The position numbers were made by a program, and so were the translations under genes. DNA of 20,715 nt from IMG/VR virus record IMGVR_UViG_3300047359_001578, positions 1 through 20,715 of that record; one strand, written 5' to 3'. This document shows positions 288 to 19,978 of this stretch, one piece after another. The DNA comes from a virus. Position 1 is the first letter of the stretch. Each line of letters opens with the position of its first letter. The notes below the pieces were generated by a model. It was not told the DNA's origin. It searched no databases and saw only the letters and a program-made list of their open reading frames with translations.

Positions 288-2711
288 TTAGCCTAGTTCG
301 CCTGTGTTTACAATGCGTACTGGAATGTAAATAAATTCTGCTGCTTTTGTTGGCTCAATACCGATGTCAATGTATAGTTCATTTCTGTCAATACGTGCTG
401 GTGTGTTGTTTGTTTCATCGCAAACTACTGCGAAGTCATATACACCACGTTTTGCTAAAATGTCTGCCATAAATCCATCAAATGTACCTTTTGCATTTAC
501 ACGAGTGTTTGTGTCATTTGGCTCGAACAGGTATGGACGTCCAATAACTGCAAAACGCTCTCTTAGGTATGCTGTTAAGCGAGCTACGTTTACACGGTCT
601 AATGCACTTGCACCTGAGTGTAGTGATTTCTGACCAAAAATAACAATACCATCTGACACAAAACGTGCGATTGGGTTTAGTTTATTTTCATACATTGCAT
701 CACGTGCGCCTTGGCTTAGTGATACTGGTGTAAATTCGCCTTCGCTGTTAATATAACCAACATTTGCGGCATTTTGTACAACACCACGTGTTAGGCCTGC
801 TGGAGCAAACCACTGGAAGCTAATATTATCATTATATGCATAGCTGTATAGCACTGAATGTGATGCTGGAGCAACAACACTTGCGCCTGTTACTGGATCA
901 GTTGTATAAACTGATGGATAGTAAGTTGCTGCATATGTATTACGGCTTACAAGTCCATCTTCGCCATTTTCTGCGGCGTTTTGGCCTTGAACCCATGCTA
1001 CTGCTTCTGTAGGATTTTTACGAAGTGGCGAATCAACAATAACAAATGCTGTTTCGTTACGATCGCTGTTTAATGTTACCATTTCATCCATTAATTCTGC
1101 ATAGTTTGGTGCTGCAATTAAGCGGAATGAAACACCTTCTTCACGAAGTTCTGTTCCTGCTGTTGATGCTTGCATTGCATTTACTACTACTGCACGTTGC
1201 GCTTTGCGTCCAAATGAACCTGCGCCAGTTGCAGCGTTTGGTGCCATGTTGCGCCATTTCCATGCTGTTGCTAGAGATGAATCATACTGACGAGCAGTAC
1301 CACCTGAGCGACACATGTTAATTGCTGATGTACCCATTGGGTGTACTAGTGGATCTGCTGAACCTGCTAACGCTTGTGTTGCTGGATCAATAAAGTTACC
1401 ACCTGTTACTGCATCTGCTGTTAAATCGCCAAATACTACACCACTTGATGTAGATTGATCAGTATTATCTTTTAATACCCAATCAGTACCATTGTGACGG
1501 TAGATTGTTGGGTAATCTGCGTCTGAATCAATCCAGTAGTCACCGTCTGCTAGTGAACCGCCGTTTGAATCTGAAGTTGGTGCCATTGATGAGTATTGTA
1601 CATCTTCAACACGCTTCCATTTTTGAACACCGCTGTCCATTGCTACTTCAAACACTTCTAGCTCATCAATATCTGCGTCAAACCAAATTGTGCCGTTCAT
1701 TGGAGCACCAGTTGGCTGTGCAACCTGTGCAGTTAGTACATAACCACCAGTTGCTACTGTTGGATCTGTTGAAACATCGTCCCACTGACTTTGGATATCG
1801 TCATAACGTTTAATTGTAAATTCGCCTGAGCCAATTTCAAACCACATATCACCTTCTGATAGGTTGCGTACTGAACCGATAGTACCATCGTGATAAATGT
1901 CTGCTGCAATACCAGTTGGTGCACCTGCTTGTGCATATACTGGTGACTGTGCAACAAAGTTACCTGCCGTTGCTGTGAATAGTGAAACGTCTAAGTCTAA
2001 ACCTGCGCCTGGTGTTGTTGTTTTAATCCAAACATCGCCAGTTGAAGGGCTTGCTGGCACTGAGTAGTGCGGAGCAAATGTTGCTGACGTTGATTGTGAC
2101 CATGCACCGCCTACGCCTTTATAATATTCTACTTTTGTTTCTGTAGGAGTTGTTGATACTGCTACAAGGTAAGTATCGTTAACTACTGCTGATGTCGGTG
2201 CACCACCTGAAGTTAATTCTACTGCCGGTGTCTGAAGTTGCCAATCAGCACCGTCATATTCAAAAATTCCCCATTTTGAATTGCCTGGATTTAACCAGTA
2301 TGTGTTATTACTTGGGTTGCCTGTTGGTTCACTTGACTGTGGACGTAGGGCAGTTAAGTCAACGTCAGCTCTCACAATATATGCGGCTGATGACTGACCT
2401 AGGAAGCTATATGCTGCCAGTAGACCATATTCATTTGTTTCATCACCCTGTGCTACTGTGCCACTTACTGTACGGAAGTCTACGTTACCGAAGTACTGTG
2501 TTAGTTCACGCTGTGATGTTACTAGAACTGGCTTTCCTGCATTAGCTGGTTTGGTATATTTTGCAATACCATCAGTTTCTGTGCCAGTAGGGTCAACTTT
2601 ATTTGCGCCTGTTGCAACAAATAGCATTGGTACCGTTCCTGCGCCTGCTGGACCATAAACTGACTCATCTGTTATGCTAACCTGTACACCAGGTGAAACT
2701 AGATTTGCCAT
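288..2711 (-). CDS. gp18: Contractile tail sheath protein (T4 gp18-like), enlarged by repeats
   Basis: This 807-residue protein is the subunit of the contractile sheath around the tail tube. The start MANLVSPGVQV is typical of T4-like sheaths. The C-terminal third is the conserved sheath core, with VNVARLTAYLRERF at about 707-720, GRPYLFEPND at 724-733 and a polymerisation tail ending FIYIPVRIVNTGELG. T4 gp18 is about 660 residues; the extra length lies in an insertion at about residues 129-413 made of six degenerate copies of a Trp/Tyr/Gly motif, listed separately. AAGGAG lies 9 bases before the ATG and a late promoter lies 52 bases upstream. The gene ends at a strong terminator, so it is probably a monocistronic late transcript, which suits a high-copy virion protein. 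Identification is very secure; the insertion is more variable than the core. Confidence 0.96.
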   Translation of the reverse strand: MANLVSPGVQVSITDESVYGPAGAGTVPMLFVATGANKVDPTGTETDGIAKYTKPANAGKPVLVTSQRELTQYFGNVDFRTVSGTVAQGDETNEYGLLAAYSFLGQSSAAYIVRADVDLTALRPQSSEPTGNPSNNTYWLNPGNSKWGIFEYDGADWQLQTPAVELTSGGAPTSAVVNDTYLVAVSTTPTETKVEYYKGVGGAWSQSTSATFAPHYSVPASPSTGDVWIKTTTPGAGLDLDVSLFTATAGNFVAQSPVYAQAGAPTGIAADIYHDGTIGSVRNLSEGDMWFEIGSGEFTIKRYDDIQSQWDDVSTDPTVATGGYVLTAQVAQPTGAPMNGTIWFDADIDELEVFEVAMDSGVQKWKRVEDVQYSSMAPTSDSNGGSLADGDYWIDSDADYPTIYRHNGTDWVLKDNTDQSTSSGVVFGDLTADAVTGGNFIDPATQALAGSADPLVHPMGTSAINMCRSGGTARQYDSSLATAWKWRNMAPNAATGAGSFGRKAQRAVVVNAMQASTAGTELREEGVSFRLIAAPNYAELMDEMVTLNSDRNETAFVIVDSPLRKNPTEAVAWVQGQNAAENGEDGLVSRNTYAATYYPSVYTTDPVTGASVVAPASHSVLYSYAYNDNISFQWFAPAGLTRGVVQNAANVGYINSEGEFTPVSLSQGARDAMYENKLNPIARFVSDGIVIFGQKSLHSGASALDRVNVARLTAYLRERFAVIGRPYLFEPNDTNTRVNAKGTFDGFMADILAKRGVYDFAVVCDETNNTPARIDRNELYIDIGIEPTKAAEFIYIPVRIVNTGELG
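1473..2327 (-). repeat. Six degenerate Trp/Tyr repeats inside the tail sheath
   Basis: Residues of about 129-413 of the sheath contain six approximate copies of the pattern (A/Q)PT(G/S) ... G(D/T)xW(I/F) ... (I/V)Y(R/K)xxG..W. Approximate spans are 129-160, 171-205, 219-254, 264-312, 332-366 and 377-413. The sixth is the clearest, with GDYWIDSD followed by IYRHNGTDWVL. DNA identity between copies is low, so they look old or fast-evolving. The insertion probably projects outward from the sheath core as surface decoration. Related motifs occur at the C-terminal ends of gp14 and gp15. Confidence 0.75.
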
Positions 2712-2800: not shown

Positions 2801-3418
2801 TTAACTGATAAGTTTATAGGTTGAAATTGCGAGATCTTCCATAGTTCCTCGGTTGTCTAGTTCCATATCGAACTCCCAACCTGCCCAACTCCACTCGCTT
2901 GGATGGACTTCTGGATAATTTTCACTCATATTGGCTTGCTTATGCCCTCTATTTTCCATAGATGCAGTTTCCCACCATTCAGGCTTATCATTTCTCCATA
3001 CTACTGCTGTTTTTCCTCCAAAACGCTTGATTACCTCAAGTTCATTAAAAAATCTACAGTCTGAAATTACAACATTTTTGTCTGTCATCTCAATTTGGCG
3101 TTCACAAGCCGCTACCCAAATATCTGGATGGAAATGATGACGGAATACATTAGTACCAACGTTTTGTAAAACATATCTTGGAGTGAAGTGAGGAATATCT
3201 AGCCTGTTTGCCCACCATCTGTCTACCGTTTCACGGAAAACTCTACTTTCGGTAGTATTACCTTCAAGCAAAATACGATCCCACCCAAAAATGTTTGCAC
3301 AAGCATCTTTTAATGCACCAGCAAAGCTAATTCTTTGGAAACCTTCTTGTAATAGGAAGCTGGCGGCAGTATCCTTACCATGTCCTATTAATCCACATAT
3401 GCCAATAACTTTTTTCAT
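2801..3418 (-). CDS. gp1: Deoxynucleoside monophosphate kinase (T4 gp1-like)
   Basis: This 205-residue protein should phosphorylate dNMPs to dNDPs for phage DNA synthesis, using ATP. The P-loop GLIGHGKDT is at residues 9-17, right after a hydrophobic strand (KKVIGIC). SFAGALKDA at 31-39 and VVISDCRFFNE at 116-126 are typical of the dNMP kinase family, and the length fits. The start is fixed by the P-loop, which sits only eight residues from the ATG. There is no Shine-Dalgarno sequence before this ATG, and a perfect sigma70 promoter ends 6 bases upstream, so the transcript may be leaderless. The promoter's -35 box overlaps the stop codon region of the upstream oxygenase gene. Early expression suits a nucleotide-metabolism enzyme placed among late structural genes. 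Family identification is firm. Confidence 0.9.
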   Translation of the reverse strand: MKKVIGICGLIGHGKDTAASFLLQEGFQRISFAGALKDACANIFGWDRILLEGNTTESRVFRETVDRWWANRLDIPHFTPRYVLQNVGTNVFRHHFHPDIWVAACERQIEMTDKNVVISDCRFFNELEVIKRFGGKTAVVWRNDKPEWWETASMENRGHKQANMSENYPEVHPSEWSWAGWEFDMELDNRGTMEDLAISTYKLIS

Positions 3419-7400: not shown

Positions 7401-8612
7401 TTATTTTTTTGGCTGATAAAACTCAAAATCATCATACATTACGCCCAACATCGCCCATAATGCATCACTGTAAAAGTTAGTTTTCCAGTTACCTTTTGTT
7501 TTATAGTTGTGCCATACACTTTCGCTTGCAGATTGTTGTGAATAATATTGCCAAAAAGGAGTATCATTGCGCTTTGTTAAGGCATAATGATGCCAAATGA
7601 AATCACAGTTTTCTTTCCATAGCCTACGCATACTTCTGTTATAAGCCTTTTGAGATAATCCACGTTTTAGGCAATTACCTAATAGTTGTATACCATACAC
7701 TGTTACAAAGAGTCCATTGGCTTCTAGAGGGTCAACCCATCCAGAACTTAATCCAATGGCTACTACATTATCTTCCCATGGATTTTCTAAATACTCAGGT
7801 ATCCAACTAAGTTTGCGTGGAGGTATGTTATTGAATGGTTCTAAATCTTTTGTCCAAGAAACAAAATCCTGTAGTGCCTGATCATCACTTAACATATTAT
7901 TATTGTATACATATCCTGTACCAATACGATGCTGTAGTGCTACCTTAAACTGCCAACCATATGGACGAGCAATACTTTGTGTAAAATTAATATTATAACC
8001 TTCTGGTATAGTTTTAGGACACACCCAGGCGCTATTAACCAAATGTCCGCTTGGTTTAATTGTACTTTTGTCTTTAATAAATTTTCTAGCAAAGCCGGTA
8101 CAATCAATATATAAATCATAACCCTCTGGTAATGTATCAAGAGTAGCAACAATATGATTAACACGTTTGCAGTGATTTTTTACGACAATTCCTGCTAAAT
8201 TTGCGTCCAAATGATACGCTGTTGCTCTACGTCCACTCATTTTATACAAATCAGTTTTCATATCTTGTTTATTTTTATTTCCAGATCTATATTCTTTTAC
8301 CCATTCGTCAAACTCATTGTTGTCATTGTACCAGAATGTCCAATCCATTTGTTCACTATCAGTTTCATGATCCCAAAATTGTTTAATATTTCCATACTTA
8401 ATGACGGCATTACTTTCGTCCATCCAGTCTGTATCTTGTAACCCACAGTCATTTAAAAATGTACCAATTTGTGGTAACGTAGATTCACCTACACCTATTG
8501 TAGCAATTTCGTTACTTTCAATTAACGTAATTTCATAATCTGGAAATTGGTTTTCAAAATAGGCGGCTGCCCACCATCCAGTAGTTCCTCCTCCAATAAT
8601 ACATAACTTCAC
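7401..8612 (-). CDS. Flavin-dependent tryptophan-halogenase-like protein, copy B
   Basis: This 403-residue protein belongs to the PrnA-type halogenase family, which uses FADH2, oxygen and halide to form HOCl and halogenate aromatic rings. The FAD-binding GGGTTG is at residues 7-12 and the family's GVGESTLPQI at 40-49. K72, aligned with the catalytic lysine of PrnA (K79), lies in SNAVIKYGN. DPLEAN at 294-299 matches the EPLEST region, so E297 is the likely second catalytic residue. It is shorter than characterised tryptophan halogenases (about 500-540). The diagnostic WxWxIP motif is altered to GWQFKVAL (219-226). The start is GTG, overlapping the previous stop as GTGA, with GAGGAA upstream. 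It is the last cassette gene. Family membership is clear; true halogenation and substrate are not established. Confidence 0.87.
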   Translation of the reverse strand: MKLCIIGGGTTGWWAAAYFENQFPDYEITLIESNEIATIGVGESTLPQIGTFLNDCGLQDTDWMDESNAVIKYGNIKQFWDHETDSEQMDWTFWYNDNNEFDEWVKEYRSGNKNKQDMKTDLYKMSGRRATAYHLDANLAGIVVKNHCKRVNHIVATLDTLPEGYDLYIDCTGFARKFIKDKSTIKPSGHLVNSAWVCPKTIPEGYNINFTQSIARPYGWQFKVALQHRIGTGYVYNNNMLSDDQALQDFVSWTKDLEPFNNIPPRKLSWIPEYLENPWEDNVVAIGLSSGWVDPLEANGLFVTVYGIQLLGNCLKRGLSQKAYNRSMRRLWKENCDFIWHHYALTKRNDTPFWQYYSQQSASESVWHNYKTKGNWKTNFYSDALWAMLGVMYDDFEFYQPKK

Positions 8613-8950
8613 AATAAATTCCTCACAATAACCAGGCTACTTATAAAAATCCACAATGTATTAAATGCAACAAATGTTGGCAATAATTTTTTCTCACTTG
8701 CCCAAATTAAAAATCCACTAGTAAACAATGTTATAAAGTGAAATTGCCAAATATGCACATGCCATACTAGTCCTGGAAGTATGATTATGGCTTTTGCCAT
8801 CCACGCCCAAAACTCTACAACATTATAATTTACCCAATATCCAGGCTTAAACCATAATGCATAGCTATCTCTTATTCTTGTTAATCCTATTTTTAAATAA
8901 ACAAATAAAGTAACAATTAGAGCTAAACCTATTCCATAAATATATTCCAT
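8609..8950 (-). CDS. Small four-helix membrane protein between the two halogenases
   Basis: This 113-residue protein was not recognised. It has about four hydrophobic segments, at residues of roughly 3-19, 50-66, 68-84 and 91-109, and an aromatic, basic loop between the first two (SYALWFKPGYWVNY). It is very rich in Trp, His and Phe, with VWHVHIWQFHF at about 62-72. The start overlaps the stop of halogenase copy A as TAATG and the end overlaps the start of copy B as GTGA, so it is translated with both. It could anchor the enzymes at the membrane, transport their substrate or carry cofactors; none of these is shown. Confidence 0.78.
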   Translation of the reverse strand: MEYIYGIGLALIVTLFVYLKIGLTRIRDSYALWFKPGYWVNYNVVEFWAWMAKAIIILPGLVWHVHIWQFHFITLFTSGFLIWASEKKLLPTFVAFNTLWIFISSLVIVRNLL

Positions 8951-10128
8951 TATTTTCCAGTATAGTATGTAAATTCATTATAATATGTACCAAGTGTAGC
9001 CCAAATGCTATCTGGATACAAATTGGTATATCTATTACCATATTTTTGGTAATTCTTCCAAAGGCTTTCACGTACATCAAAATCTCTATAGTAACGCCAA
9101 AATTCAGTGTCTTCTCTATCACTCAACATATAGTGATGTAATATATATTCACTATTATCTCTCCATACTTTTCTTAAAGCACGATTGTATGCTTCTGGTG
9201 AACCTTTTCTTTTCAATACCCTAGCAAGCAGAGTAATACTATACTGTGTCATAAACAATGCATTTGATTCCAATGGATCTAAAAATCCGTTAGACAATCC
9301 TATTGCTACTGTATCTCCACTCCATGCATTTTGTAATACTTCAGGCTTCCATTGTATTAGTCTAGGTTCTTTGTCCATAAAAGGAGTTCTGTATTTGTTG
9401 TATTCGACAAAACTAGCATATGCATCGCTAGTGCTTTCTAGTTGACTAGCAAATACATAACCAGTTCCAATACGAGTTTTTAGATCAATAATAAACTGCC
9501 ATCCATAGTCACGTGCAATACTTTGAGTGTATCCAGTTTTATGTTTATCAACAAGAACGTAAGGACATACCCACGCACTATCAACTAAATGATGTTTAAA
9601 GTCCATAGTTGTTAAGTCGTTCACAAATTTGCGAGAAAGTCCAGTGCAGTCAATATAAAGATCATAACCTTCAGGCTTACTGTCTAATGTAGTAACAATA
9701 TGCTCAACTCGTTTACAATTATCTTTAACAATATCGCCTGCTAATTCTGCATCTAAATGATATGCATGATATCTTTCGCTATTATACTGCTGATTAAAAT
9801 CTTGGATATTTCTATCACCAGCCGCCCATTTATCAAATGGATTTCCTTCATTACTCCAAAAAGTAAATGCTAAATCTGGGTTTTTAGTCCATCCAGTTTT
9901 TATATTTCCTAATTTCTTAACAGCATTTGCCTTAGGCATCCATGTTTTTTCTTGTAATCCTAAATCATTAAAAAATTCAGCAATTTGAGGTAACGTACTT
10001 TCGCCTACTCCGATTTTTGGAATATCTTCACTCTCAAAAAGAGTAATTTTAGCTTTAGGAAATTTTTTCTCTAAATATCCAGCAGTCCACCAACCAGTGG
10101 TGCCGCCTCCAATAATACATATTTTCAT
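8950..10128 (-). CDS. Flavin-dependent tryptophan-halogenase-like protein, copy A
   Basis: This 392-residue protein is a paralogue of the protein encoded at 7401-8612, with conserved blocks along the whole length: CIIGGGTTGWW, GVGESTLPQI, AYHLDA, EGYDLYIDCTG, SAWVCP, TQSIAR, RIGTGYV and VAIGLS. The FAD motif is at residues 7-12, the candidate catalytic lysine is K72 and the candidate catalytic glutamate is E287 in DPLESN (284-289), closer to the usual EPLEST than copy B. The WxWxIP signature is again changed, here to GWQFIIDL (209-216). The ATG overlaps the upstream stop as ATGA. The two copies may act on different substrates or form a heteromer. Halogenases of this family are known in marine T4-like phages; the substrate is unknown. 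Confidence 0.88.
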   Translation of the reverse strand: MKICIIGGGTTGWWTAGYLEKKFPKAKITLFESEDIPKIGVGESTLPQIAEFFNDLGLQEKTWMPKANAVKKLGNIKTGWTKNPDLAFTFWSNEGNPFDKWAAGDRNIQDFNQQYNSERYHAYHLDAELAGDIVKDNCKRVEHIVTTLDSKPEGYDLYIDCTGLSRKFVNDLTTMDFKHHLVDSAWVCPYVLVDKHKTGYTQSIARDYGWQFIIDLKTRIGTGYVFASQLESTSDAYASFVEYNKYRTPFMDKEPRLIQWKPEVLQNAWSGDTVAIGLSNGFLDPLESNALFMTQYSITLLARVLKRKGSPEAYNRALRKVWRDNSEYILHHYMLSDREDTEFWRYYRDFDVRESLWKNYQKYGNRYTNLYPDSIWATLGTYYNEFTYYTGK

Positions 10129-11177
10129 ATTACATATTTCTCCGTATAAGGTTTTCTGTTTATTTTATAACTACTCACATCAAATGTGAGAGGTTTATTT
10201 TGTATCATTTCACTTAATGTAAGTCCTACTGCCGGACTATGCATTAGTCCTCTACCAGTAAATCCAGTAGCAAAAAAATACTTGTCTCTATGATCGATAA
10301 TTGCATTATTATCTATTGCACTTTTATCATAGTAACCTGCCCAAGCACCTGTCATTTTGGCTTCGTCAAAATAATCTGGAAAGCGATGATACAAGTGTTC
10401 CCATACCTCATCCCAACTATTCCAGTCAGGTTCTAAGTCCTCACTATCTAACGTACCATTTCCATCATATCCTACTATGTATCCGTTACCTTCAGGTCTT
10501 AAATAAATTCCTGTAATTAAGTCAGCTATAAGTGGCATGTCTTTTATAACTGGTTTAGATGTACTTACATTAAAAACTGTGTGCTTGTGTGGTAATACTG
10601 GAATACTTAATCCAAACGTTTTACCTACTTTATAACTCCAACACCCTGCTGTAATAACAACCGCTTCTGCATCATCATGATTAACTTTTGTGCCATCTGC
10701 ATATATAAATTTGCAATCTGTATTCTCTTTATACCATTTATGTAATGATACTGGATCCAACCACCCCTCACTGCCGTCAGTTGTGATACAACCACTATAA
10801 ATATCATCTGAATTAATATAGCTATGGCTAATTTCCATTTGCCTGTTGTTTAATTTAATGGTACTTGCACCCATTTCTCTTTGCATTTTATAACTATAAT
10901 CGTGATCAGCTTTTTGGTCTAGACCAAATAGCATTAAATATCCATTACCAGTAAATTCTACATCTGTTTGATTTTTAACAAAGTCTATACTATAGCGGCT
11001 CATTTCTACGTTTGTGGGAGTAAAATATTGAGCTCTAAATCCACCACAGCTACGAGCAAAACTACTCTCTGAATATGCAGGGTCTTTTTCAAATACAGTT
11101 ATTTCATGTCCGTCTTTGGAAAGCTGATAAGCGGTGCTCATTCCGATTATACCGCCGCCGATTACATGTATTTTCAT
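10125..11177 (-). CDS. FAD-dependent oxidoreductase, DAO (amine oxidase/dehydrogenase) family
   Basis: This 350-residue protein matches the DAO superfamily (D-amino acid, glycine, sarcosine and related oxidases or dehydrogenases). The N-terminal FAD-binding GGGIIG is at residues 7-12, with the acidic strand end TVFEKD. SSFARSCGGFRAQYFTP at about 38-54 resembles the region after the FAD site in sarcosine dehydrogenase-like and FOXRED1-like proteins. AVVITAGCWS and, near the C-terminus, FFATGFTGRGLMHSPAVG are the other family FAD contacts. The domain is complete and of usual length. It starts 5 bases after the hydroxylase stop and overlaps the next halogenase start as ATGA. It probably oxidises an amine or amino-acid group. 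It could also return reduced flavin to the halogenases, which need a flavin reductase, but that role is not typical of DAO enzymes. Confidence 0.85.
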   Translation of the reverse strand: MKIHVIGGGIIGMSTAYQLSKDGHEITVFEKDPAYSESSFARSCGGFRAQYFTPTNVEMSRYSIDFVKNQTDVEFTGNGYLMLFGLDQKADHDYSYKMQREMGASTIKLNNRQMEISHSYINSDDIYSGCITTDGSEGWLDPVSLHKWYKENTDCKFIYADGTKVNHDDAEAVVITAGCWSYKVGKTFGLSIPVLPHKHTVFNVSTSKPVIKDMPLIADLITGIYLRPEGNGYIVGYDGNGTLDSEDLEPDWNSWDEVWEHLYHRFPDYFDEAKMTGAWAGYYDKSAIDNNAIIDHRDKYFFATGFTGRGLMHSPAVGLTLSEMIQNKPLTFDVSSYKINRKPYTEKYVI

Positions 11178-12070: not shown

Positions 12071-13042
12071 TTATTTTTCGTTAATTTGACGTTCGAATTC
12101 TCTTAAACGTTTGTACACACTCATTAGTTCGATAATAGTTGGCCATGCTTTAAGTAAATATTGCATTGATCCTTCAACTCTACCAAATGCTCTAATAATC
12201 TGTTGCATTACACCTAGTGTTACTGCGCCTGCTACAATAGCTGGTGCTAAGAACACATAGGCTGATAAAACGTTTGCTTGCAAATAAGCTATTCTTCCTA
12301 CATTAAAATATAAGTATCTCAGATATGATTTAAAGTGAATACCACGTACATCTTCAAATAATTCATCAATAGTTTTTGGACGTACTTTTTCATCGTCCTC
12401 TGCAATAACAAGAATTTTCCTGTATGCCGCTTCTTTCTTTTGTAGATCATATTCTACGCCTACTAGACGTAAAAACCATCCTAGTGCTACTAAGAACAAT
12501 GTACCACCAATACTCCAAACTAGAGCACCAGTAACAAGTCCATATTCCCAATCACCAAAAAAGAAGACCGTTATACCTGCGCTTAGTCCTAGTAGGATTG
12601 GAACAAATTGTACTAAAATCATAATTGCTTCAATAAAACTAGTACCAAGCCCTTCCATAATTCGACTAAACTTAATAGTGTCTTCTTGTACACGTTGTGC
12701 GGCACCTTCAATAGTGCGAGCTTTATCGTATACACTATGATACCATTCAACCATTGCGGCTCTCCAACGGAACAAATAGTGAGCTGTAAAGAAACTTACT
12801 ACTACCGCAATAGCAACATAAATTCCTGCAAGGTATATAAAGTCAAATAAACCTTGCCAATACTCAGTCATTGTAATACTGTTTGGAGCAGCCAATGCTC
12901 GCTGAATCATATCATAAAATTGTCCAAACCATTCGTTAATCTTAACGTCGATTTCGACTTGAACCCATAATGAACTTAAAATCACAGCTGATCCTAGCCA
13001 TGACCATAATAGCCATTTTCGGGTGGTAAAAAATCTAAACAT
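12071..13042 (-). CDS. SbmA/BacA-family peptide transporter homologue
   Basis: This 323-residue membrane protein resembles the inner-membrane peptide importers SbmA and BacA, which use the proton gradient to bring in peptides such as microcin B17. Matching blocks in order are RKWLLWSWLGS, INEWFGQFYDMIQRAL, HYLFRWRAAM, IEGAAQRVQEDT (111-122), EAAYRK (204-209), YLYFNVGRIAYLQ (243-255), AGAVTLGVMQQI and ELMSVYKRLREFE. It is shorter than E. coli SbmA (406); the missing part is mainly the N-terminal 80 or so residues with the first membrane segments. No ATPase domain follows, as in SbmA. AAGGAAAC precedes the ATG and a perfect sigma70 promoter lies 48 bases upstream. I know of no usual role for this family in phages. 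Confidence 0.87.
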   Translation of the reverse strand: MFRFFTTRKWLLWSWLGSAVILSSLWVQVEIDVKINEWFGQFYDMIQRALAAPNSITMTEYWQGLFDFIYLAGIYVAIAVVVSFFTAHYLFRWRAAMVEWYHSVYDKARTIEGAAQRVQEDTIKFSRIMEGLGTSFIEAIMILVQFVPILLGLSAGITVFFFGDWEYGLVTGALVWSIGGTLFLVALGWFLRLVGVEYDLQKKEAAYRKILVIAEDDEKVRPKTIDELFEDVRGIHFKSYLRYLYFNVGRIAYLQANVLSAYVFLAPAIVAGAVTLGVMQQIIRAFGRVEGSMQYLLKAWPTIIELMSVYKRLREFERQINEK

Positions 13043-13124: not shown

Positions 13125-13706
13125 TTAAAAAGCGCCATCGCTATAATCATAAGGGTCGACGTTGGCATTGTCACTATTTTGACTTGTGTTAGAATTTTGT
13201 GATTGTTGTTCAATCATTCTAACTAAACCATCGTCAACCCCCTGCGCTTTTAACGCTGACGACTTCGGTGGAAGTGAATCACGTTTGATCCTATCCCACT
13301 GATAGTCTTCATTTTGTGAGTCAGAACCTTTTCGAGGTTTCATTTTAAGTGAGCCTTCGATCTTCTGACCAATTTCTAGATCACGCTGTAATTTTCCCAT
13401 TAGTTTTTTATTTTCGTCAGTGTAGGGTATTCTGAAGTATAATGGGAGGCCTTCGCCGTCTATACGTGCTAGAAATACGATATCTGGTTTTGCGACTTCT
13501 ACAAATACAATTTCTATTTCGCCTGATGGAACACTACGCTTGGGTGTTCCTTGTAATGCAAAAATTGAATAACCAGCAAATATTGTTGATACTAATATGA
13601 AAGGAATTAAAATAAACAAGAGTATATAATTTTTTCTAGTTTGTATCAAAGCATATATTGATACTACTGCCATTAAGAAAAATAAAATTATTGATGTATA
13701 AATCAT
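13125..13706 (-). CDS. Membrane-anchored protein, third member of ExbB/ExbD-like group
   Basis: This 193-residue protein was not recognised. It has two hydrophobic segments near the N-terminus (about 2-22 and 27-50, separated by QTRKNY), then a soluble region. That region begins with a beta-rich part (GEIEIVFVEVAKPDIVFLARIDGEG), continues with a basic stretch and ends in a low-complexity Ser/Asn/Gln and Asp tail. The topology suggests a membrane hairpin with the larger domain on one face. The ATG overlaps the stop of the ExbD-like gene as ATGA, so it is probably made in proportion with that protein. It may be a partner of the channel pair, but nothing in the sequence names a function. Confidence 0.75.
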   Translation of the reverse strand: MIYTSIILFFLMAVVSIYALIQTRKNYILLFILIPFILVSTIFAGYSIFALQGTPKRSVPSGEIEIVFVEVAKPDIVFLARIDGEGLPLYFRIPYTDENKKLMGKLQRDLEIGQKIEGSLKMKPRKGSDSQNEDYQWDRIKRDSLPPKSSALKAQGVDDGLVRMIEQQSQNSNTSQNSDNANVDPYDYSDGAF

Positions 13707-14311
13707 GGTGCTCTTCCTCCCATTGGTGCCACTTTACGGTTGTGGTTAAATATATTAGTGATTTTTCCGTCTGAGTCGATTGAAATTCCTGGCCACTTTT
13801 CAATGGTTCTTACATTCATCATTTGTTTTGTTATACTATAAACTTGCTGAAATGGATTGACTTTAATAACAGTAATAGTTACGTTTAAAGGATCAACTTG
13901 TCCTTTTCGTTTACTATAATAGTGAGCAGCAATGTAGTAATCTCCGGGTACGATTCCTCTAATTGTCATTGTCTCTCTGTTAACTTTGATAAACGTTGCT
14001 CGTCCATCAATTAGAACCGTGTCATTTACCGATCCTAAATCATCTCTATCCAAGTGTAATGGTGCGCCTTCTTTTCTACTAAAACCTACAGGCGGATCAT
14101 TATCTCGTTGCATCCACAGATCAATATCATCTGATGATTCATCTTCCCATTCTATAGTAATAATAAATTCAGCTTTAACTGGAATGTCTGCTTTTTTAGT
14201 AATTGGATTAATTAGTAAGAAAGCAATAATGAATAGCATAACAAAACCAATAAGGACGTTAAACAATAAATCATTAAATGCTAAACCACTGCCTAGTCTT
14301 CTTTTACTCAT
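13703..14311 (-). CDS. ExbD/TolR/MotB-like single-pass protein with a beta-rich domain
   Basis: This 202-residue protein has one N-terminal membrane helix, FNDLLFNVLIGFVMLFIIAF (12-31), with an aspartate (D14) at its start, as in ExbD/TolR where that Asp carries protons. A periplasmic-type domain follows: ITIEWEDESSDDIDLWMQRD (51-70), GAPLHLDRDDLG (82-93) and IRGIVPGDYYIAAHYYS (118-134). The DIDLWM ... LDRDDLG pattern resembles the DUF2135/YfaP-like metal-binding beta fold rather than a normal ExbD domain. The start lies 8 bases inside the ExbB-like gene and the stop overlaps the next gene. Helix plus context support the ExbD-like call; the outer domain is atypical. Confidence 0.72.
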   Translation of the reverse strand: MSKRRLGSGLAFNDLLFNVLIGFVMLFIIAFLLINPITKKADIPVKAEFIITIEWEDESSDDIDLWMQRDNDPPVGFSRKEGAPLHLDRDDLGSVNDTVLIDGRATFIKVNRETMTIRGIVPGDYYIAAHYYSKRKGQVDPLNVTITVIKVNPFQQVYSITKQMMNVRTIEKWPGISIDSDGKITNIFNHNRKVAPMGGRAP

Positions 14312-14744
14312 CTTTAAACTCTTGAATTACAATTTGTATTTTTAGGAACAGGCTAGCAATAAGTCCAACTAATGTAGTTAACAATGCAGTACCCATACCT
14401 GCTGCCATATCAATAATTACTAGTCGCATGCTGTCAATATTTCCTGGATCAATTTCTGCAAAGCTACTTCCTAGCATAAGCATGAAGCCAGTCACTGTGC
14501 CAATCATACCTACAGACATACAAGACTCAGCTACAAACCAATTCATATCATGGTTGTTTTTGCCGAAATATGCATAATATCCAATTGACAGTGATGTTAT
14601 TAGCCACATTGCTGACGCTAAAAACGATAGTTTTGTTAAATCGGTTTCCCATAAGAATTCTAAAGAACCCATATAAACAGAAATACCGACTAGTATGGCT
14701 TGAATCACAAATACAAGCCACCAAATCATAAATTTTTTATTCAT
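14304..14744 (-). CDS. ExbB/TolQ/MotA-like proton-channel protein
   Basis: This 146-residue protein has about four hydrophobic segments (roughly 6-25, 40-60, 72-92 and 114-135). The last two carry the family signatures SVGMIGTVTGFMLML (77-91) and GMGTALLTTLVGLIASLFLK (116-135), where ExbB/TolQ form the proton path with Thr residues. It is shorter than ExbB (about 244) and lacks most of the large cytoplasmic loop. In bacteria such channels drive TonB, Tol or flagellar motion with a single-helix partner, and the next gene supplies such a partner. GAGGG precedes the ATG. The upstream region has a hairpin and a weak late-type element. Assignment to the superfamily is fairly secure; what it drives is unknown. 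Confidence 0.8.
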   Translation of the reverse strand: MNKKFMIWWLVFVIQAILVGISVYMGSLEFLWETDLTKLSFLASAMWLITSLSIGYYAYFGKNNHDMNWFVAESCMSVGMIGTVTGFMLMLGSSFAEIDPGNIDSMRLVIIDMAAGMGTALLTTLVGLIASLFLKIQIVIQEFKDE

Positions 14745-14821: not shown

Positions 14822-15889
14822 ATGCCACGTTTAAGTCTGTACAAACCATATAAAAGCAATGATTATAAATTCATGGATCGCAATATCAGAGAACAGTTTG
14901 ATATTGGCGGAACCGCTGTACATGTACACAAGTATTTAGGTCCAAGAGAACAGTCAAACAACACTGATCCAAGCGAGCCGAATTATGGTAGTGGTGACGT
15001 ATTAGACAACATATTCGAAGAAGAAATTAATCCGTCAGGTGAAATTGACGAAACTAACATACAAGATTTGTTGTTTATGGAAAACAGAGATCGCAAATAT
15101 GATCCAGATATTTTTGAATTACGTGGTGTTTACAATGTTAGTGATAATGATTTTGACTTAACACAATTTGGTTTGTTTTTAACAAACGACACATTGTTTA
15201 TTAGTTTTCATATCAATGATATGGTAGAAAAATTAGGACGAAAGTTAATGCCTGGCGATGTTTTTGAGTTGCCACATTTAAGAGATGACTTATTACTTAA
15301 CCACGACAGAGAAGCAGTTAATAAATTTTATGTAGTACAGGACGCAGCGAGAGGAAGTGAAGGATTCAGTCAAACGTGGTTCCCTCATATTTGGAGGGTT
15401 AAAGTGGCACCATTAACAGATACACAAGAATACTCAGACATACTTGGTAATGCTAACGATCCAGAAAGTCTTAAAAATGCACTAAGTAGTTACCAAACTG
15501 AAATGAATATCAGTAATGCTATTGTAAAAAGTGCTGAAGAAGCAGATCCATTAGGAATACCATTAGCAGATCATTTATTTGGTTCTAATGAGGATACTGA
15601 AGAATACGATCACGGTGAAACACTACAACAAGGTGATCAATTTCCACAAGATCCAACCGATGGAGAATATTTTGTAAGAACAGATTTTAGTCCTAATAGA
15701 CTGTTTGTATACAGAGGAAGCCGTTGGCACAGATTATATGATCAAGAAAACACCACAACATGGAGTGATAGAACATATAATGCAAGCTCGTTTATCGAAA
15801 ATAAAAATACCACTGTTGTTGATAACCAAGAATTTGGTGAGCGCCAAGCATTAAGTAAAGTAATTAAACCAAAGAGTGATTTTGAATAA
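14822..15889 (+). CDS. gp14: Neck protein (T4 gp14-like)
   Basis: This 355-residue protein resembles T4 gp14, which with gp13 completes the head and joins it to the tail. YDPDIFELRGVYNVSDNDF (93-111) and GDVFELPHLRDDLL (145-158), followed by the VVQDAARGSEGFSQTWFPHI region (171-190), correspond to the gp14 stretches around the VSPDLIFGEDL and EGDLIYFPMDN segments. T4 gp14 is about 256 residues; part of the extra length is a C-terminal region with a Trp/Tyr motif, DPTDGEYFVR ... LFVYRGSRWHRL (277-304), like the repeats in the sheath. GAGGA precedes the ATG and a late promoter lies just upstream. Its stop overlaps the gp15 start as TAATG, which keeps the T4 order gp14-gp15. Assignment is good from the order and these blocks. 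Confidence 0.83.
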   Translation: MPRLSLYKPYKSNDYKFMDRNIREQFDIGGTAVHVHKYLGPREQSNNTDPSEPNYGSGDVLDNIFEEEINPSGEIDETNIQDLLFMENRDRKYDPDIFELRGVYNVSDNDFDLTQFGLFLTNDTLFISFHINDMVEKLGRKLMPGDVFELPHLRDDLLLNHDREAVNKFYVVQDAARGSEGFSQTWFPHIWRVKVAPLTDTQEYSDILGNANDPESLKNALSSYQTEMNISNAIVKSAEEADPLGIPLADHLFGSNEDTEEYDHGETLQQGDQFPQDPTDGEYFVRTDFSPNRLFVYRGSRWHRLYDQENTTTWSDRTYNASSFIENKNTTVVDNQEFGERQALSKVIKPKSDFE

Positions 15890-17241
15890 TGGCACAATAT
15901 TTTTATGACAAACAATTAAGACGTTATATCCAACAGTTTATTAGACTGTTTGGTGGGTTTAATGTACAAATGGGTTCAGATAATGCTGGGCTACCTATCT
16001 ATCAAAAAGTTCCAGTAAGATACGGTGATATTAATCGTATGGCGGCACACATAACCAGAGAAAATAGTGAAAATATTGTTAACACTGTTCCTCTTATTAG
16101 TTGTTATGTTACAGATTTAAATATGGCTCCAGAAAGAAGATTAAGTCAAGACTATGTTGAAAAAGTACAAGTGGCAGAGAAGAAAATAAATCATGAAACT
16201 GGTACATATGAAAATGAAATAGGAAGAACTTATACTGTAGAAAGACACATGCCAGTTCCGTACAATCTTGTTATGAACTGTGATGTATGGACATCAAATA
16301 CTGATCAAAAATTACAATTATTAGAACAAATACTAGTATTATTTAATCCTACACTTAACATAAACACTAGTAGCAATCCACTTGATTGGAGTTCATTAAG
16401 TTATGTTGAAATGACAAACACACTTTGGAGTAGTAGGAGCATTGGTAGTACTATTGACGATATTATTGATGTATCAACACTTACGTTTCAGATGCCAGTA
16501 TTAATAAACCCACCAGCAAAAGTAAAACAGCAAAAACTTATTCACACACTTATTAATGAACTTTATAGTTTAGATGATACTAATTTAGATTTATTTAAAG
16601 AAAATTTACCATTTGATGAAACAACATTAAAATATACAGTTGTCACATTTGAGCAGAGAAAATTACGTTTTGAAAACGGTAATGCTTTTTTACTTACAGC
16701 ATCTGGAGAAGATAATAATAACGGAACAATACTGTCATGGAAAGACGAGTTAGAAAACTTTGGTGAACTACGTAGCGGTATTAGCCAAATACGTCTAAGA
16801 AAAAGTGACGATCCTGGTGATATTGATAATGATATTGTTGGTACTTTAAGTTTTGATCCGCAAGATGATAACATTTTAATTGTAGACGTTGATCAGGATA
16901 CACTTCCTGCAAATACAATATCACCTATTGATGGTGTTATTGATCCAACGATAGCATATCCTGGTTCAGGCAATGTACCAGTTGCATCACAAGGACAACG
17001 ATATATGGTTACAAAAGATACAATTGGATCAGGACCATGGGGAGGTGTTGTAGCAAATACTAATGACATTATCGAGTATAATGGTACTAATTGGGTTGTA
17101 TCATTTGACAGTAAATCAAACAATAATCAGCAGTACTTACTAAACAATGCAAGCCAAGATCAACTTGAATGGAATGGAAAAGAATGGTACAATAGTTATG
17201 AAGGTATATACAAACAAGGCTATTGGAGACTATACTTGTAA
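15889..17241 (+). CDS. gp15: Tail terminator / proximal sheath stabiliser (T4 gp15-like), extended
   Basis: This 450-residue protein matches T4 gp15, the ring that ends the tail tube and stabilises the sheath. The N-terminus MAQYFYDKQLRRYIQQFIRL parallels MFGYFYNSSFRRYATLM in T4. IYQKVPVRYGDINRMAAHI, the PVPYNLVMNCDVWTSNTDQ region and LLEQILVLFNPTLNI follow in the same order. The core ends near residue 215 (VLINPPAKVKQ). T4 gp15 is about 272 residues; here a further 235 residues form a C-terminal extension containing the pattern QGQRYMVTKDTIGSGPW ... IIEYNGTNWVV (368-403) and ending WNGKEWYNSYEGIYKQGYWR (428-447). The extension probably lies on the outside of the neck. Start and stop are coupled to the genes on either side. 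Confidence 0.92.
   Translation: MAQYFYDKQLRRYIQQFIRLFGGFNVQMGSDNAGLPIYQKVPVRYGDINRMAAHITRENSENIVNTVPLISCYVTDLNMAPERRLSQDYVEKVQVAEKKINHETGTYENEIGRTYTVERHMPVPYNLVMNCDVWTSNTDQKLQLLEQILVLFNPTLNINTSSNPLDWSSLSYVEMTNTLWSSRSIGSTIDDIIDVSTLTFQMPVLINPPAKVKQQKLIHTLINELYSLDDTNLDLFKENLPFDETTLKYTVVTFEQRKLRFENGNAFLLTASGEDNNNGTILSWKDELENFGELRSGISQIRLRKSDDPGDIDNDIVGTLSFDPQDDNILIVDVDQDTLPANTISPIDGVIDPTIAYPGSGNVPVASQGQRYMVTKDTIGSGPWGGVVANTNDIIEYNGTNWVVSFDSKSNNNQQYLLNNASQDQLEWNGKEWYNSYEGIYKQGYWRLYL
16534..17238 (+). other. C-terminal extension of gp15 with Trp/Tyr motifs
   Basis: Residues 216-450 of gp15 have no counterpart in T4 gp15. The clearest part (368-407) resembles the GD/GQ-x-Y-x-V ... W ... I..Y.G..W pattern of phage tail-fibre DUF2793-like domains and the sheath repeats. 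It probably adds a surface domain at the neck. Confidence 0.65.
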
Positions 17242-17817: not shown

Positions 17818-18237
17818 ATGAATGCAAGTGGATGCATAATTTTAGCCAAAGCAACAGGCAGAATTTTAATGCAACAAAGAAGTAGCCAAGTAAAGTATCC
17901 AAGTACATGGGGGTTTTTTGGCGGAAAAAGTGAAGGTGCTGAGCGTCCTATAGAAACTCTTCTTAGAGAAATTCAAGAAGAGATTGGCAGTATACCTGCC
18001 TACCAAAAAGTGTTTCCATTAAGTAGTTACACAAGTAATGATAATAAATTTACATATCACACATTTGTAATTTTAGTTAAAAAAGAATTTATACCTAAAA
18101 AATTAAATGCTGAAAGTAATGGTTATAGTTGGACTGGTATTGGTAATTTTCCACAACCACTACATCCAGGTGTGAAAAGTCAACTAAGTAACAAGCATAT
18201 TTTAGCCAAAATAAAAACCATTCAAGAACAATCCTAA
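17818..18237 (+). CDS. NUDIX hydrolase
   Basis: This 139-residue protein has a complete NUDIX box, GX5EX7REUXEEXGU, at residues 36-58: G36, E42, R50, E51, E54, E55 and G57 are all present. WGFFGGKSEG leads into it. The catalytic glutamates bind magnesium. The family cleaves nucleoside diphosphates linked to other groups, including damaged dNTPs, ADP-sugars and mRNA caps; the exact substrate is not visible. Length is normal for a single-domain enzyme. The start follows the previous stop by 9 bases, with a weak AGG site. It is the last plus-strand gene and converges with a glycosyltransferase gene. Confidence 0.88.
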   Translation: MNASGCIILAKATGRILMQQRSSQVKYPSTWGFFGGKSEGAERPIETLLREIQEEIGSIPAYQKVFPLSSYTSNDNKFTYHTFVILVKKEFIPKKLNAESNGYSWTGIGNFPQPLHPGVKSQLSNKHILAKIKTIQEQS

Positions 18238-18252: not shown

Positions 18253-19335
18253 TTAATCGTCTGCTGAAATACGTTTTTTCATACTCTCAACAAAACGTTC
18301 ACGTAGCCAATCGAAGTCATTAATTTTATTTAATTCGTCTACATTATCAAAAAACTCTTCACCATACTCTTTACCTTCTAGTGCGCCTTTGATACAATAA
18401 CGTCCAAATCGGGCGCCATTATCAATAGTAGTCCATCCTTCAAGTCTTTCAGTTGTTTGTTTCGACGGTGTATTTTGCTGTTGAATACCACTTGCAAGTT
18501 TTGCACATTCACGGAATGCACTTCTCCAAGTACGGAACGGGTCTTTATTAAAGCGTGTAATACATGCAACATTACTGATTGGTTGATAAAATGCTGCACC
18601 ACCAGTAAAGTCAGGAAGCTCATGTCCCATTTCAAGAAGTTGTTCACGTGGGAATAACTTAATTCCGCCAAAACCATATTCTAAACCATTAATTGGATTT
18701 CTAGCCGCCCAAACATATGTTGTGTTGTCTCTTTTAGACATAGGCGGAATATAGTCAAAGTTAAAACTATCCACAATATCAGCATCTGCATCAACAATAT
18801 AAACCATCGCAGTATCACACATAGCGGCGGCTTCTTTGTGAGCGTTTCCAATACCTTTAACATTTTTTACATGTTTTGCATCTGGATATTTCAATTTTAA
18901 TTTCTGAAAATTTTGATCTGCTTCTGCTTCGTGGTAGCTGATCATAACCACATCAAATGTTGTTTCATTAAATGTACCAACAATTTTATTTTTGATAGTT
19001 CCTTTAACATTGTCGATATTTGTAGGAATAAGTTTTATTTTACCCCAACCAACAACACTACCTGTTCTTGCAATTACGTTTGGAAATAAGTGAATAAAGT
19101 TACGGCTATCATCAGATGGTCGGAAGTGCCAAGGAAAGTTTTCTCTGGCCTTTGCTTCTGGATCTTTTAACCATACAAAATCAGAAACACCTTGGTGCTC
19201 TTTGGCAATTTGTATGATTTCTTCCATATTGTCTGTATTTGTTTCCACTACTGGATAACTGTTAAACACAAACTTTTTTAGTCTATCCCAAGGCGTAACT
19301 ACACTTTGATTTTTAAATTTTTCCATATTAAACAT
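18253..19335 (-). CDS. Putative GT-A-type glycosyltransferase, large partner
   Basis: This protein of about 360 residues has a glycosyltransferase-like centre: FDVVMISYHEAEADQNFQKL, then VKNVKGIGNAHKEAAAMCDT, then MVYIVDADADIVDSFNFD, with the acidic DADAD (182-186) in the place of the metal-binding DxD. Later segments YVWAARNPINGLEYGFGGIK and FTGGAAFYQP are typical of sugar-transferring proteins in T4-like marine phages. I place the start at the ATG at 19335 (MFNMEKF) because AAAGG lies about 8 bases upstream; the GTG at 19344 would be too close to it. The start overlaps the end of the upstream glycosyltransferase by 8 bases. Sugar and acceptor are unknown; DNA bases, virion proteins or host surface are options. 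Confidence 0.72.
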   Translation of the reverse strand: MFNMEKFKNQSVVTPWDRLKKFVFNSYPVVETNTDNMEEIIQIAKEHQGVSDFVWLKDPEAKARENFPWHFRPSDDSRNFIHLFPNVIARTGSVVGWGKIKLIPTNIDNVKGTIKNKIVGTFNETTFDVVMISYHEAEADQNFQKLKLKYPDAKHVKNVKGIGNAHKEAAAMCDTAMVYIVDADADIVDSFNFDYIPPMSKRDNTTYVWAARNPINGLEYGFGGIKLFPREQLLEMGHELPDFTGGAAFYQPISNVACITRFNKDPFRTWRSAFRECAKLASGIQQQNTPSKQTTERLEGWTTIDNGARFGRYCIKGALEGKEYGEEFFDNVDELNKINDFDWLRERFVESMKKRISADD

Positions 19336-19978
19336 TGCAGTCACCTTTTAAAGTATAAATTTTTGTTCCGGAATGTCCTATGCTATTGCTAAGAGTTTTT
19401 TCAACCCATATTTCATATCCGTGTTCTCTTGCTTTTTCGCAAAAAAAGATATCTTCTCCAACCATATTTGAATAGTCGTCGTTCCATGTAACGCTATAGT
19501 GTGGTCTAGGCATTTGCTCGTAAACTTGTCTTTTTACTAACATGCATCCTGCACCTACAGCGAAAACAGATTGTAATCCTTCTCCGCTCAAAACTCTACT
19601 ATCCAAATTTCCTGGATTGTCAAACGCTACTGGTCTGTGAGGTTCAACTCTAGTAGAATAATTACATGCAATAATGTCTTTTTCATGTGACAATAATGCT
19701 TGTAATAGATTAGATGGAAATAACATATCACTATCTAACCATAATATATGTGTGCATGCTGTTTCAAGTGCTTGCTCAACCAATTGCTGGCGTTGCATTG
19801 CTACTTCACTTCCCATAACCATATGTAACGATGTCTTTTGATTAGTCTCCCCACACTTTTTCATAAGCATAGAGAGACTAAAGGTAAAAGAAGATGTTAC
19901 ATAATCTCGCACAGGAACACAGATTGCAACATTTGTTCCTTTACTGTCTTTATAGTAAAAGTTAGGGGTACTAACCAT
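19328..19978 (-). CDS. Glycosyltransferase, GT-A fold (family 2-like)
   Basis: This 216-residue protein has the order of a GT-A enzyme. NVAICVPVRDYVTSSFTFSL (15-34) gives the nucleotide-binding strand, THILWLDSDMLFPSN (76-90) contains the DxD metal site (D82 and D84), VGAGCMLVKRQVYEQM (141-156) is the acceptor-side strand, GEDIFFCEKAREHGYEIWVE (174-193) holds the probable catalytic acid (E175/D176), and H202 in IGHSG could complete the metal site. It transfers a sugar from a nucleotide donor. The start overlaps the upstream stop as TAATG and the end overlaps the next gene, so the two transferases are made together, probably early. Confidence 0.85.
   Translation of the reverse strand: MVSTPNFYYKDSKGTNVAICVPVRDYVTSSFTFSLSMLMKKCGETNQKTSLHMVMGSEVAMQRQQLVEQALETACTHILWLDSDMLFPSNLLQALLSHEKDIIACNYSTRVEPHRPVAFDNPGNLDSRVLSGEGLQSVFAVGAGCMLVKRQVYEQMPRPHYSVTWNDDYSNMVGEDIFFCEKAREHGYEIWVEKTLSNSIGHSGTKIYTLKGDCNV

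Follow-up and report, generated by a model that had tools for sequence, protein, structure and literature searches.

The repeats in the tail sheath protein of virus record IMGVR_UViG_3300047359_001578 are probably tandem copies of a fibre-type three-strand β-meander, a unit common in phage virion proteins, which would be used for exposed or docking surfaces and for stability. The unit is about 35 residues long and occurs in six degenerate copies within aa 125-416 of the sheath. A further copy appears to lie near the end of an adjacent structural protein, and gp15 appears to end in two more. The record, referred to here at its full length as the window, comprises 20.7 kb (20,715 nt) and is of the marine giant-phage type. 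For the sheath, neck and gp15 proteins, the closest matches are found in PA5oct, Atu_ph07, Phosso, RaK2, 121Q, GAP32 and SCTP-2, which are large myoviruses of 280-490 kb. Relatives are frequent among IMG/VR contigs, near-identical as well as 45-90% identical.

The sheath gene (288..2711, minus strand) encodes a protein of 807 aa. It belongs to the contractile tail sheath proteins of the T4 gp18 family, as recognised by PF17482 (E 3.5e-12, 46.7 bits, cut-off 26.9), by phrog_10581 (E 1.9e-197) and by hhalign to T4 gp18 itself (99.8% over 239 columns). The core is formed by aa 1-118 and about 500-807, with a variable outer block between them at aa about 119-500. The ORF adjoining the sheath gene, 2801-3418 (-), is nucleotide-kinase-like by eye, and in several relatives an annotated deoxynucleoside monophosphate kinase adjoins the sheath gene.

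A unit HMM seeded with the sixth unit (U6) alone and iterated over 62 sheath homologues recovers exactly six domains in the window sheath, at aa 126-158, 171-204, 211-250, 282-312, 332-368 and 375-414, each with a domain E of 4.3e-7 or better. The six degenerate repeats reported in a preliminary description of the window are thereby borne out. The regions it had given in the sheath, gp14 and gp15 are also correctly placed, at aa 129-413 (1473-2327, minus strand, in the sheath), 277-304 and 368-407, respectively.

All units of the sheath lie on the minus strand. U1 (2214..2339, aa 125-166, with W139 and W157) and U5 (1599..1727, aa 329-371, with W343 and W365) are detected by the HMM, by AlphaFold2 (AF2) strands and by hhalign of unit profiles, in which they match each other at up to 96.7%. 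The seed unit, U6 (1464..1598, aa 372-416, with W393 and W411), is seen by the same three means and matches U1 at 94-96%, U3 (1944..2072, aa 214-256) at 81.8% and U4 (1764..1928, aa 262-316) at 57%; U3 and U4 are likewise found by the HMM and in the AF2 strands. The most degenerate is U2 (2088..2210, aa 168-208), which is weak by hhalign and is identified by its HMM domain (E 2.4e-7 in the last iteration) and its AF2 strands. A probable degenerate seventh unit, U7 (1218..1358, aa 452-498), is predicted where the chain re-enters the core; its A-B-C strand pattern is known from the AF2 model alone, and hhalign gives no significant profile signal for it. Scans of Pfam and PHROG with single units return no family other than the sheath PHROG, and the best hit of the unit profile among PDB sequences, at E 0.47, is an unrelated protein. 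A match of PF16606 (zf-C2H2_assoc) to the block is below its cut-off and was taken as compositional.

The unit profile matches 60 of the 62 sheaths. The sheaths of XacN1 and RAS14 (714-715 aa) align without the block, and distant jumbo-phage sheaths hold three to four detectable copies each. As units are present in all the related jumbo-phage sheaths examined except these two, they are regarded as old and not as a module that the tail has gained, as had been supposed. Judged from sequence, they are a conserved feature of RaK2-, PA5oct- and Atu_ph07-type jumbo-phage sheaths. In most marine relatives the outer block has diverged faster than the core (46-66% versus 74-93% identity), yet the signature Trp positions are retained. 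Residues W139, W157, W204, W343, W365, W393 and W411 are conserved at 90-100% among 50 diverse sheaths, and in U1, U5 and U6 the signature residues do not vary across wide divergence.

Structures were predicted as AF2 monomers for two proteins, the sheath (aa 112-500, from 50 sequences) and gp15. The model of the sheath block has a mean pLDDT of 92.9 and a pTM of 0.81. Every unit in it is a three-strand meander with a constant strand order, A-B-C. Strand A holds the GxYW or G-x-x-W motif, strand B ends in a Tyr and a turn Gly (Y-x-x-G), and strand C starts at the second Trp. Seven separate three-strand meanders are delimited by DSSP of the model. A β fold common to the sheath units and the gp15 units, named earlier as an outcome that would support the idea, is predicted by AF2.

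A Foldseek search of the PDB with the sheath block returned nothing at E <= 0.001. No Ig chains occur among the Foldseek or VIA matches for the block, an absence that does not exclude an Ig-like β-sandwich. The three best solved-structure neighbours of U6 are the T5 tail tip, JBD30 gp54 and the T7 gp12 nozzle, with Z of 3.0-3.5 over 40-45 residues. These are short, weak matches, all with Z under 4; as the values are low, their weight lies in their agreement of kind, all three being phage tail proteins. The match in JBD30 gp54 covers aa 40-86, where the motif is visible in the sequence and the second unit has some profile support. Profile support for T5 pb4 is borderline. The T7 gp12 segment (aa 247-294) is unit-like by eye and in structure (Z 3.0), but its hhalign score is at the level of shuffled profiles and it was kept as a lead only.

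The alignment with T4 gp18 sets the sheath units between residues about 91 and 325-348 of the T4 protein. Domain I of T4 gp18 comprises residues 98-188 and domain II residues 88-97 and 189-345, both of which are solvent-exposed in the tail (PMC3004832). The mapping on the T4 sheath called for earlier therefore places the block at gp18 residues about 91-345, the exposed domains I/II, and by this homology it is expected to face outward. Since the units stand at the place of domains I/II, the block would replace the outer domains of T4 and not be an addition to them. The chain position is the same, whereas the T4 domains are a six-stranded β-barrel and a β-sandwich and the block is modelled as tandem three-strand meanders; no sequence similarity is found between the block and the domain I/II region. 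Domain I of T4 protrudes from the tail; its binding partners are the baseplate, when the sheath is extended, and the retracted long tail fibres (PMC3004832).

Another possibility is that the block is neutral bulk, kept since the site tolerates insertions and without a role of its own. In T4, domain I takes no part in sheath-sheath contacts, the extra T4 domains were regarded as nonessential (PMC3004832, PMC9230969), and in relatives the block can be as short as about 365 aa or longer than 700 aa, all of which would suit such an account. Bulk would not need the invariance of the U1, U5 and U6 signature residues over wide divergence, however, and this explanation is considered quite unlikely.

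Extra outer domains in jumbo-phage sheaths are already known. In Evseev et al. 2022, the sheaths of RaK2, SCTP-2 and Atu_ph07 are modelled with extra outer (type 3) domains; jumbo-phage sheaths with five or more domains are described, most of the extra domains are called Ig-like, and adhesion or stability is proposed for them (PMC9230969). The type 3 domains have the same place in the sheath protein as the present block, but are described there mainly as Ig-like β-sandwiches. In the text searched, neither fibre-type units in tandem nor their presence in neck proteins is mentioned, so that the make-up of the block from such units, shared with neck proteins, appears undescribed to that extent. 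The present analysis gives a concrete composition to the extra outer sheath domains in a large group of jumbo phages abundant in the ocean, probably tandem fibre-type units as opposed to the usually reported Ig-like domains. The published outer sheath component of phiKp24 is related to phiKZ gp29 (PMC9700779); it is therefore not a structure of the sheath block and was ruled out as one.

Comparison of profiles places units of one type in the sheath, in the protein at the gp14 position and in gp15, the last being the weakest by sequence; this part of the earlier proposal agrees with the results. The gp14-position protein (14822..15889, plus strand, 355 aa) is a virion structural protein matching phrog_11591 and lies upstream of gp15. 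Its single unit is near the C terminus, at aa 275-306 (15644..15739, plus strand), with hhalign values of 25-41% against U6. Column-shuffled profiles, 60 per comparison and scored by hhalign, served as the control for chance. The segment at aa 277-305 scores 25.3-27.5 with U6, against 10.8-11.2 +/- 1.9-2.3 for shuffled profiles. None of the 60 reaches the true score, which is 7-8 SD above them and in register with the sheath units. The comparison with U1 is also reached by none of 60.

The same protein had been named gp14. Against T4 and P-SSM2 gp14, hhalign gives 0.1-1.5%, where gp15 in the same test gives 95.8-98.1%, and the only PHROG match is phrog_11591. As no similarity is detectable, identity with T4 gp14 was rejected, and the name is best abandoned or flagged as positional. 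The protein may be distantly related to T4 gp14, with which its position beside gp15 agrees. Its counterparts in 121Q, GAP32 and XaC1 are of about 490-498 aa and contain several tandem copies by eye, two of which are scored by the sheath-only profile in 121Q. These genes (L006:34057-35547, L005:30801-32294 and L007:40829-42301 for 121Q, GAP32 and XaC1) seem to have been enlarged by tandem duplication of the unit, in comparison with the one copy in the window.

The gp15-type protein (15889..17241, plus strand), a tail terminator or sheath stabiliser, is a relative of T4 gp15 by PF16724 (E 3.9e-25, over the cut-off) and by its AF2 model, which matches T4 gp15 (4huh) with a Z of 17.7 over 170 aa at 3.0 A. 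It has a C-terminal extension of about 215 aa (aa about 235-450) ending in two units. The first, C1 (16993..17109, plus strand, aa 369-407), has a long A-B loop and AF2 strands at 371-374, 394-397 and 402-406; the second, C2 (17128..17196, plus strand, aa 414-436), was missed by the preliminary description and has strands at 415-419, 424-428 and 433-435. The strand order equals that of the sheath units, at about 90 pLDDT. C1 matches U1 at 29% by hhalign; at aa 380-404 the score is 25.9 against 11.7 +/- 2.4 for shuffled profiles (0/60 reach, z 5.9). C2 matches C1 at 63% (z 5.6, 0/60) and the unit of a fibre-like protein of Atu_ph07 at 79% (z 4.7 for gp15 against that unit). Scores with U2, U3 and U5 are at noise. 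As the link rests on U1, on C1 with C2 and on the Atu_ph07 unit, with the other sheath units silent, the relationship of the gp15 units to the sheath units is held to be likely but not proven. Near gp15, a gene at 17818-18237 (+) is NUDIX/MutT-like by eye; MutT/NUDIX genes also adjoin gp15 in PA5oct, GAP32, 121Q, XaC1 and Vibrio phage 2.275.O.

The noise-level gp15 scores raise the question of convergence, by which short aromatic β-meanders would be alike through chance or composition and the gp14-position and gp15 segments would not be homologous to the sheath units. The shortness of the units, only about 30 residues, and the want of clear profile support for the T7 and T5 matches point the same way. 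Convergence is nevertheless thought improbable, given that the register is constant between units, that shuffled profiles fail in all four comparisons (the gp14-position unit with U6 and with U1, gp15 with U1, and C1 with C2) and that the 121Q-type proteins carry tandem copies recognised by a profile built from sheaths.

The unit also occurs outside the sheath and neck. The sheath-only profile matches two collagen-bearing proteins of P-SSM2 (E 3e-5 and 1e-4), one of them annotated as a tail fibre, and a 614-aa fibre-like protein of Atu_ph07, whose unit matches the sheath block at 84.6% by hhalign (z 8.5 over shuffles). By the sheath-only HMM and the shuffles, the profile of the P..P..G-D-x-W unit is common to sheath and tail-fibre copies beyond chance. 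For the P-SSM2 unit, 119 phage records give a match, and many of these are annotated as tail fibre; the unit of Atu_ph07 is found in many PHROG families, including tail fibre. In tail fibres (P-SSM2 PSSM2_024/027 and those of cyanophages, Vibrio and Enterococcus phages) the P..P..G-D-x-W..L-x-V-Y..W unit has the motif and spacing of the sheath unit; it is carried there by fibre or collagen-bearing proteins, as opposed to a contractile sheath. The unit is a widespread and old virion building block, found above all in tail fibres and not peculiar to the sheath and neck, and a role special to the tail exterior, as first put forward, is not upheld. A short building block with no Pfam family recurs in fibres, in the sheath and neck and in receptor-binding proteins.

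The N-terminal domain of JBD30 gp54, DUF2793 (PF10983), has by eye, like the C terminus of gp15, a two-unit layout in which G-x-RY ... Y-x-G-x-W is followed by a shorter unit. PF10983 gives no match to the gp15 C terminus or the sheath block at E up to 10, and JBD30 gp54 itself scores only 17.9 bits with it; DUF2793 is unconfirmed as the family of the gp15 C terminus, for which one relative comes from bacterial genomes. The domain with the similar unit, known as the thigh domain, joins the baseplate hub and the receptor-binding protein (PMC11445458).

The preliminary description had put forward glycan binding, in which exposed aromatics would bind host or environmental polysaccharide and the tail would be coated with weak adhesins. 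The block has many aromatics, is exposed by T4 homology and diverges fast, its unit is found in tail fibres too, and adhesion was suggested for extra sheath domains by Evseev et al. (PMC9230969). The signature Trp residues, unlike a receptor site, are near-invariant in phages whose hosts are Pseudomonas, Agrobacterium, Klebsiella or unknown marine organisms, which fits a structural role better, and the similar unit in the solved JBD30 structure belongs to a connecting domain. No match to a CBM family is above threshold, the only one seen being CBM96 on the 121Q protein (E 0.11, below cut-off), and there is no convincing lectin-like match among the Foldseek and VIA results for the block; chains of the Ralstonia RSL lectin (E 0.6 or worse, TM about 0.1) were treated as noise. 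Glycan binding is accordingly rated unlikely, and the constant aromatics, with no CBM family or convincing lectin fold, favour a structural unit serving exposed surfaces and virion docking. Of the original interpretation, the shared unit type and the exposed place stand; the gain, the gp14 name, the tail-specific role and the glycan binding find no support.

As a structural element, each unit would be held together by its conserved Trp, Tyr, Pro and Gly residues, the aromatics presumably packing against one another. Strung in tandem, the units could form a rigid outer shell with faces free to vary. The shell surface may then mediate contacts between virion parts, such as sheath to neck ring and sheath to fibres or appendages, and add stability. 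The docking role is modelled on T4 gp18 domain I, with its retracted long tail fibres and baseplate, and on the JBD30 gp54 domain. A bolder version, in which sheath, neck and fibres dock through like-like contacts of one interchangeable β-unit, a 'fastener' over the tail exterior exchanged between fibre and sheath genes, is highly doubtful. What the exposed layer of the sheath does becomes testable in the culturable relatives PA5oct, 121Q and GAP32.

The remaining genes of the window include several outside the tail module. A MotA/TolQ/ExbB-like protein at 14304-14744 (-) is weakly matched (E 9e-5, just under the cut-off) and is followed at 13125-14311 by two small ORFs, each with a hydrophobic start. 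A peptide transporter of the SbmA/BacA family, unusual for a phage, is encoded at 12071-13042 (-) (PF05992, E 4e-140), and a glycosyltransferase-like protein of the Anp1 type at 19328-19978 (-) (PF03452, E 1.6e-8). Two tandem FAD proteins of the tryptophan-halogenase family, here in a phage, occupy 7401-8612 (-) and 8950-10128 (-) (PF04820, E 8e-66 and 6e-68), with blocks 70-75% identical at the DNA level. They adjoin an FAD-dependent oxidoreductase at 10125-11177 (-) (DAO, E 5.5e-42), and the three genes may form one metabolic cassette.
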